Of a stretch of 64,000 nucleotides of DNA, positions 36,234-56,784 are shown in pieces. The stretch spans positions 2,728,001-2,792,000 of the forward strand of contig NZ_LT629786.1 in NCBI RefSeq assembly GCF_900105675.1, in the 5' to 3' direction. The notes beneath the pieces are model-generated. The model did no database searches and was not told the DNA's origin. It was given only the letters and a program-made list of their open reading frames with translations. The DNA is from Pseudomonas synxantha (GTDB taxonomy: Bacteria > Pseudomonadota > Gammaproteobacteria > Pseudomonadales > Pseudomonadaceae). Each line of letters opens with the position of its first letter. The first letter of the stretch is position 1. Position numbers and translations under genes: made by a program.

Positions 36234-36343
36234 AAATGTGGGAGGGGCGGTGCGACGATTCGACTTGCTCCCGATGAGGGAGTGTCAGTTGATACATCTA
36301 TAACTGACCCACCGCCATCGGGGGCAAGCCCCCTCCCACATTT
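36234..36343. repeat. REPIN (two inverted REPs with hairpin spacer)
   Basis: Outer REPs: GTGGGAGGGG...GCTCCCGATG on the left and CATCGGGGGCAAGCCCCCTC on the right, in inverse orientation. The spacer contains GTCAGTT/AACTGAC (36284-36290 and 36302-36308). The left REP carries an extra CGGTGCGACGATTCGA block. It lies between convergent genes. This is the intact form of the REPIN that is interrupted at 43.4-43.9 kb. Confidence 0.8.
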
Positions 36344-43327: not shown

Positions 43328-43402
43328 AAAATGTGGGAGGGGGCTTGCTCCCGATGACGCTGGGACAGCCTCAGATATGTTCATCTGACACTCCCTCATC
43401 GG
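43328..43402. repeat. Left part of an interrupted REPIN
   Basis: GTGGGAGGGGGCTTGCTCCC at its start, then a spacer ending GACACTCCCTCATCGG, which is the inner side of the second REP as seen in the intact REPIN at 36.3 kb. The REP breaks off at CATCGG (43397-43402), where the 457-bp element begins. The other end resumes at 43860. Confidence 0.7.
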
Positions 43403-43859
43403 CTCATGAATATCTACACAACTCACGCAGCCACCATCAGTAACCACGATGCGAAGCGAGCCGCGCTTGATCTTGATCTGCTTTTGATCTCAGGCGCCCC
43501 GTTAAACCACGCTGGCCGGAATTCGACAGGGATTTGGGGGGTAAACCGGCAGGGATGCCGGTTTAGCCGCCCCGCGCCATGGATGGCGCGTGGCGGCGGC
43601 CCCCCAAATCCATGGCGGATTACGGGCACACCGAGCCTGGGCGAGGTGCCGAGTGGTGGGGCAAGAGCCTTTTGGTTACTTTTGGGCTCTTTTCAAAAGT
43701 GACCCGCTGTAAAAGCGGAACCAATAGTGGCCGTAACCCAAATAACGGATATGTACTCGATCAACTCCAACATCCTGGTGGGCTGTCAGGCCGCCATCGG
43801 GAGCAAGCCCCCTCCCACAGGTCCAGCGGCGTAACCAAAGTTGTGTAGATACCCATGGC
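43403..43859 (+). mobile_element. 457-bp non-autonomous structured element with terminal inverted repeats, copy 1
   Basis: Left end CTCATGAATATCTACACAAC (43403-43422), right end GTTGTGTAGATACCCATGGC (43840-43859). Twelve bases, TATCTACACAAC/GTTGTGTAGATA, match perfectly and the next CATG also matches. CATCGG flanks both sides (43397-43402 and 43860-43865) as a possible target duplication within a REPIN. Inside is a nested fold: outer stem GGATTTGGGGGG/CCCCCCAAATCC (43530-43541, 43600-43611) enclosing AAACCGGC/GCCGGTTT and CGCGCCAT/ATGGCGCG hairpins, then CCGCT/AGCGG further on, and an internal REP at 43791-43820. A 98-codon frame (43406-43702) is open here and in copy 2 but resembles no protein. 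No transposase is encoded. Confidence 0.65.
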
Positions 43860-43907
43860 CATCGGGGTCAAGTCGAATCGTCACACCGCCCCTCCCACAT
43901 TAGATCT
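43860..43907. repeat. Right part of the interrupted REPIN
   Basis: CATCGGGGTCAAGTCGAATC continues the broken REP, followed by GTCACACCGCCCCTCCCACA. The same AAGTCGAATCGTC block is present in inverse orientation in the intact REPIN at 36.25 kb. It ends 9 bp before the dehydrogenase stop codon and probably shapes its 3' end. Confidence 0.65.
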
Positions 43908-56339: not shown

Positions 56340-56784
56340 GTGTGGGAGTGGGCTTGCCCCGATCAGCATAAGTATCTACACAACTTAAGTAACCACGATG
56401 CGAAGCGAGCCGCTCTTGATCTTGATCTGCTTTTGATCTCAGGCGCCCCGTCAAACCACGCTGGCCGGAATTCGACAGGGATTTGGGGGGTAAACCGGCA
56501 GGGATGCCGGTTTAGCCGCCCCGCGCCATGGATGGCGCGTGGCGGCGGCCACCCAAATCTCTGTCGAATTACGGGCACACCGAGCCTAAGCGAGGTGCCG
56601 AGTGGTGGGGCGAGGACCTTTTGCTTACTTTTGGCTGGGCCGGCATTCCGGTCCTTCCAAAAGTGAGCCGCTGTAAGAGCGGAACCCTAAGTGGCCGTTA
56701 CCTAAATAATGGATATGTACTCGGTCTGATCCAACATCCTGGTCGGCTGTCAGGCCGCCATCGGGGGCAAGCCCCCTCCCACAT
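56340..56784 (+). repeat. Second copy of the structured dispersed element, with flanking REPs
   Basis: The stretch 56373-56784 matches the core of the 43.4-kb element closely in sequence and length, from TATCTACACAAC (56373-56384) to the right-hand internal REP (56757-56784). A left REP (56341-56365) brackets it. The outer stem is longer here: AATTCGACAGGGATTTGGG (56469-56487) pairs with CCCAAATCTCTGTCGAATT (56552-56570) over 19 positions with one G-T wobble. The right terminal repeat is not recognisable. Most of the gap from 56336 to 56874 is taken up by this repeat and by a REP-like remnant near 56830-56862. No gene is supported. Confidence 0.75.

Follow-up and report, generated by a model that had tools for sequence, protein, structure and literature searches.

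Bacterial MITEs such as ERIC and NEMIS are short units with terminal inverted repeats (TIRs) that are present in many copies, lack a transposase gene and are flanked by a target duplication. For the RNA family TwoAYGGAY (RF01731), binding of CsrA has been predicted and validation called for (PMC4333381); the descriptions consulted make no mention of a location in mobile elements or of many copies per genome. With RsmE of strain SBW25, an assay using ssDNA oligonucleotides is reported to have revealed effective interaction, among AnGGA probes, only with ATGGA and AGGGA (PMC9928087). Pull-downs with each of the three Rsm proteins of P. putida KT2440 reportedly recovered intergenic RNAs lying beside ISPpu8 or at its putative insertion sites, one of these RNAs being reported as a long region of palindromic sequence (PMC7937890). 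A link between a MITE-borne TwoAYGGAY RNA and Rsm was found in none of the titles or abstract openings among the matches listed for the open-access literature.

The element described here lies in the window, i.e. the whole stretch of 64,000 nucleotides that was analysed, and occupies nucleotides 43405–43857, that is, 453 bp from CATG to CATG, or 457 bp if the 22-mer ends are counted. Its terminal inverted arms (43405–43423 and 43839–43857; 19 nt, 89% complementary) include a perfect 12-mer, TATCTACACAAC / GTTGTGTAGATA, and the consensus of the 20-bp TIR in the family is CATGGGTATCTACACAACTT. The original prediction had described a 457-bp unit with imperfect 20-bp TIRs and a perfect 12-bp part, inserted in a REPIN whose intact form is found at 36234–36343 and devoid of its own transposase. 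The arms and the 12-mer were recovered, both REP flanks and the intact REPIN are present, and the interval between the TIRs is free of transposase genes. To the right of the element, from about nucleotide 43858, a REP variant begins, and the left REP and this variant are ordered as in the intact REPIN. The left arm of the latter contains an extra stretch, GGTGCGACGATTCGACTT, resembling one in the REP to the right of the element. As a correction, the REP at 43793–43819 is located inside the element and does not form the right-hand part of the REPIN that was interrupted. The interior, previously noted as complex and left without an assignment, comprises a TwoAYGGAY RNA and, after it, a REP (Table 1). 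CATCGG had also been proposed as a possible target duplication. It does occur on both sides, and the family duplicates 10 bp, but in this copy the flanks agree in only 6 of 10 positions, exactly the CATCGG, so that the duplication is either decayed or coincidental.

Table 1. Features of the element and its surroundings; positions are those of the window.
Feature	Position	Strand	Remarks
Left REP of the interrupted REPIN	43332..43357	+	
Putative former 10-bp target duplication, left side, CTCATCGGCT	43395..43404	.	6/10 matching right side
Left terminal inverted repeat	43405..43424	+	
TwoAYGGAY RNA (RF01731)	43508..43634	+	59.8 bits
Hairpin 1, loop AGGGAT	43542..43565	+	
Hairpin 2, loop ATGGAT	43573..43590	+	
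Hairpin GGTTACTTTTG..CAAAAGTGACC	43675..43704	+	Four other copies have an IS481-family IS near 43686–43692
Internal REP of the element	43793..43819 (in arm 43781–43819)	-	End point of 18 of 37 aligned single copies
Right terminal inverted repeat	43838..43857	-	
Putative former duplication, right side, GCCATCGGGG	43858..43867	.	Start of the right REP of the interrupted REPIN
Second copy in the window: left TIR, RNA, then end at its own REP, without right TIR	56367..56783	+	RNA at 56457–56583, 60.9 bits

The cargo of the element is a member of the Rfam family TwoAYGGAY: the cmscan score exceeds the gathering cut-off of 43, and the whole length of the model is matched. When 150 of 294 candidates were scored, the host genome revealed at least 69 RF01731 matches, all over the cut-off, comprising 49 single copies and 20 copies in 10 close pairs. 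Nine of the pairs are divergent, with cores approximately 260 bp apart, and one is tandem. TwoAYGGAY RNAs are also arranged as long palindromes in which two of them diverge, as in the pair 4712189-/4712447+. Six other genomes contain 15 to 104 matches each, the 104 being in G126 (about 5.4 Mb), and in G117, G123 and G126 the RNA region was within an inverted repeat at all six loci checked. C4 antisense RNA (RF01695) was observed within about 1 kb of TwoAYGGAY in four of 35 loci scanned (L154, L155, L157 and L163), with an adjoining short open frame, similar in sequence, in three of them.

The segment 43508–43736 folds with –124.7 kcal/mol (z –6.3), placing both hairpins atop a long stem. Covariation was assessed using two alignments (A1 and A2) with one row per distinct sequence, restricted to copies with two 6-nt-loop GGA hairpins; the cells changed on both sides of the stem numbered 32 against 8.3 after shuffling for hairpin 1, and 13 against 3.7 for hairpin 2. 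Across species, 71 matches were reduced to 67 copies by merging identical stretches, and every one of the 119 hairpins counted in these with a GGA loop of 6 nt reads ANGGAT (ATGGAT 92, AGGGAT 22, AAGGAT 5). The script required neither the first A nor the last T, but the covariance model by which the copies were found favours both, as well as paired stems and GGA loops. This count is limited to 6-nt loops with at least five pairs, 5-nt loops such as AGGAC being outside the 119. Among the 69 host copies, two such 6-nt-loop hairpins are present in 43, one in 23 and none in 3, and some of the 23 possess a 5-nt loop in place of the other.

A 469-bp query against the host genome (6.84 Mb, one contig) gave at least 93 matches, at least 43 of them of 320 bp or longer; 40 of 644 first-look candidates were scored, and both figures are therefore lower bounds. 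The pattern GGGTATCTACACAAC, allowing at most one mismatch, is present at 51 places, versus 1 for the reversed pattern. In an alignment of 37 single copies, from which 32 of the 69 RNA copies were excluded (20 paired, 12 B-type or interrupted), homology runs from the left TIR to the internal REP. Both TIRs are kept, within 6 mismatches, in 10 of these copies. The left TIR is combined with an end at the internal REP in 18 and with some other end in 5, and 4 are without the left TIR. Beyond the REP, the sequence in the 18 REP-ending copies differs from the element's own spacer. The simple reading is that the right TIR was probably lost through recombination between the internal REP and the target REP, which would leave a copy unable to move. 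Of the three remaining sites in the host genome, two hold a short TIR pair each and the third a single TIR.

Four copies (L061, L047, L051 and L077; near 74, 6316, 2889 and 1907 kb of the host genome) carry a roughly 1.26-kb IS of the IS481 family, always at one site of the element (the equivalent of window positions 43686–43692, approximately, in the loop of the GTTACTTTTG hairpin) and in both orientations. A link between this IS and ISPpu8 of P. putida is unsupported, since the 120 matches listed of 5551 name ISAzvi11 once and ISPpu8 never. A fifth copy (L067) is broken by an IS110-like piece, and at L036 (2967.8–2968.6 kb) the copy is followed by REP-bearing units repeated in tandem about every 71 bp.

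The evidence for movement comes from the flanks. A 10-bp duplication stands directly outside CATG...CATG and is exact in 6 of the 14 TIR pairs of the host genome and 33 of the 60 found in public contigs (104 loci with the 20-mer); at least 9 of 10 positions match in 8 and 43 pairs, respectively. Shuffling of partners over 1000 rounds gave a mean of 0.74 exact pairs (maximum 4) for the host and 1.51 (maximum 6) for the public pairs. These means are so far under the observed numbers that REP sequence held in common does not explain the duplications. One site has an unusual variant of the duplication, CTCATCGCAG, on both sides. Joining the flanks across the element produced REP-like sequence at all nine sites printed, five of which were sought in 12 relatives, a comparison of empty sites having been called for in the original prediction; all five were uninterrupted in at least one relative. 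The counterpart of site 3819388 aligns without gaps at 97% over 503 bp, that of 2092538 at 88%, those of 3839284 at 81% and 78%, and those of 812657 and 6756271 at 84% and 79%, the REP of the relative being of another type or degenerate at the last two.

The duplications, the uninterrupted counterparts and the REP-like joined flanks all support the earlier view that the element is non-autonomous and MITE-like, with REPs as its targets. Comparison of copies and sites establishes the MITE-like nature of the family and shows it to have moved into REPs as a TIR-bounded unit with 10-bp duplications. For the window copy no orthologous empty site was found, its left and right neighbour genes not being adjacent in the loci of relatives that were compared; in one relative (L081) an intact REPIN lies beside the right-hand gene. 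The ortholog of host site 812657 in another genome (L169; G065:C1 near 1676846) bears a TIR belonging to this family and an interior that differs, which suggests that this intergenic place has been hit or re-used.

A source of transposase was sought among longer TIR pairs. Among 50 pairs under 4 kb from 80 public loci, 47 do not exceed 581 bp. The three longer pairs revealed no autonomous partner: in L225 an IS splits the element, and those open frames of at least 200 aa that were read in L202 and L251 did not resemble transposases. The 1.26-kb insert of the four copies mentioned above was likewise rejected as an autonomous version, being an IS481-family IS at one site in both orientations. 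DDE_Tnp_1 genes with these TIRs were absent from the 30 of 38 matches fetched (8 genomes), the best resemblance having 7 mismatches of 20. We infer that a transposase encoded elsewhere acts in trans; because of the inverted repeats and the target duplication it is likely to be of the DDE type.

The TIRs are a vehicle, and the RNA one of its cargoes, since they also move other contents. In the host genome four TIR pairs are without the second GGA hairpin (L116, L128, L131 and L133), and duplications of at least 9 matching positions flank three of them; among the public pairs such duplications flank 25 of 36 scored as RNA-less and 18 of 24 with RNA. REPINs of different classes are found between these TIRs in other genomes. 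The 80 named public loci with the 20-mer are mostly from P. grimontii, P. cedrina, P. libanensis, P. paralactis, P. khavaziana and other Pseudomonas, with a few metagenome bins and a Pontibacter; given the named species with these ends, the host is likely a Pseudomonas as well. The exact 20-mer was also observed in the non-Pseudomonas bins L209, L227 (Gallionella) and L265 (Proteobacteria), with TIR pairs of 200–490 bp, which may represent bin contamination. RF01731 matches were present in 73 of 119 Pseudomonas genomes (63 of them above the cut-off; no more than 21 candidates were scored per genome), versus the TIR 20-mer, with at most one mismatch, in 39 of 398 genomes; RNA and TIR thus differ in their spread. 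G404 is an example of a TIR-rich genome, with 79 sites. Plasmid and phage records gave only partial matches to the window element (1 plasmid, 3 phage), and the palindromes of two relatives gave no phage match in the one query made and matched two plasmids over about 60 bp.

Taken together, we favour, with a probability of roughly 0.5, a MITE-like element with a TwoAYGGAY cargo, the two ANGGAT hairpins of which are predicted to bind RsmA/RsmE, so that transcribed copies would likely be decoys. The host genome possesses three CsrA-family genes. An unlinked transposase, likely DDE, would move the TIR-bounded units in trans into REPs, and recombination between the internal REP and the target REP, with deletion of the right TIR, would then fix a copy. 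The RNA would be made by readthrough from the neighbouring gene, both hairpins would be clamped by one Rsm dimer, and each transcribed copy would become a decoy site for RsmA/RsmE. This decoy action is the best-supported of the mechanisms and is predicted at about even odds. A wider proposal, offered tentatively, is that of a transposon-borne RNA sponge, in which pairs of RsmA/RsmE sites are spread over dozens of REPs, transposition sets the free Rsm titre and the Gac/Rsm network evolves by decoy copy number.

The hairpins might instead have no cellular Rsm role, the element being an ordinary MITE with a structural repeat (a transcript end, a DNA cruciform or a protein site on DNA) whose GGA loops are inherited or serve another use. 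This reading, which we regard as possible though doubtful, agrees with the opposite strand of 43508–43736 also folding well (z –5.6), with the failure of a scan of the element to reveal a sigma-70-like promoter site, and with the lack of any sign that a strand is chosen. Nor, among the 37 host copies, is there an excess of G-U among the departures from pairing (G-U and A-C each with 5 pair types; 7 versus 25 cells), and hairpin singletons are not significantly rarer than elsewhere (p = 0.26). These observations also count against the favoured reading, as do the presence of two 6-nt-loop GGA hairpins in only 43 of the 69 host copies and the failure to find a transposase with these ends among the pairs and DDE_Tnp_1 matches covered. 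It accords less well with the loops, since the ATGGA and AGGGA for which RsmE is reported to show preference (PMC9928087) are both loops of the window RNA and account for 114 of the 119 counted, and ANGGAT was retained throughout although the stems change on both sides. Diversity among the 37 host copies is 0.006–0.016 in the 5' outer stem and hairpins versus 0.14–0.15 in the outer parts, which also argues against it, though the parts following the hairpins have values between these (0.05–0.13).

An Rsm-binding RNA could also act in cis: as a 3'-UTR site it would alter the upstream mRNA, in stability or in ending, instead of serving as a titrating decoy. In favour of this are the lack of a promoter of its own in the scan and the location of the upstream gene on the RNA strand in 37 of 49 single copies, a count that tail-to-tail placement by itself can give. 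Of the 45 single copies with both neighbours called (4 of the 49 being without a called neighbour), 24 lie between convergent genes and 2 between divergent ones, and among tandem genes the RNA has the direction of the genes in 10 cases and the opposite direction in 9. These counts point to tail-to-tail placement, the 10 versus 9 giving no sign that the orientation is chosen, and we consider the cis reading unlikely. Finally, the unit lies between REPs and has a REP inside, as would a giant REPIN moved by a RAYT via its REPs with the TIRs incidental. This was rejected as very improbable because homology among the copies begins at the left TIR, with the left REP missing or at varying distance, and because the 10-bp duplications abut the TIRs; the carriage of other REP classes by the same TIRs also speaks against it.

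On the favoured decoy reading, RsmA/RsmE-binding sites would likely be scattered round the genome as copies spread. A MITE with a two-site Rsm hairpin cargo would tie repeat load to Gac/Rsm control, and with it to secondary metabolism, motility and biofilm, and would provide TwoAYGGAY, an RNA family of no demonstrated function, with both a testable role and a vehicle. The palindromic RNAs pulled down with Rsm proteins in KT2440 may be TwoAYGGAY palindromes, in which case the element type might explain these intergenic RNAs of P. putida (PMC7937890).

Compared with described systems, the element resembles ERIC and NEMIS in its general build and differs from them in carrying a conserved two-hairpin RNA of regulator type and in inserting into REPs. 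Insertion into REPs is shared with ISPpu9, ISPpu10 and ISRm22, as reported in PMC1525189; according to the same source these encode transposases, and ISPpu9 and ISPpu10 make repeats of 2 bp versus the 10 bp of the present family. The SBW25 repeat R200 (320 bp, 47 copies; PMC2718517) is similar in length and copy number, as compared by its description alone. REPINs, which are reported to be moved by RAYTs (PMC3116915), also have REPs at or in the unit, and differ in TIRs, duplications and copy boundaries: a REPIN is bounded by two inverted REPs, whereas the left homology boundary here is the TIR. With the Csr/Rsm sponge RNAs (RsmX, RsmY, RsmZ and CsrB) the element RNA shares GGA in hairpin loops and two or more sites, but it has only two sites per unit, no promoter that was seen and many dispersed, mobile copies. 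RsmX/Y/Z have their own regulated promoter with a GacA box; reading of the sequence by eye revealed no such box, and the RNA is for this reason not classed as a Csr/Rsm sponge RNA. It is placed in TwoAYGGAY, the full model of which it matches, and it differs from the described members of that family by its location in a mobile element and its many copies per genome.
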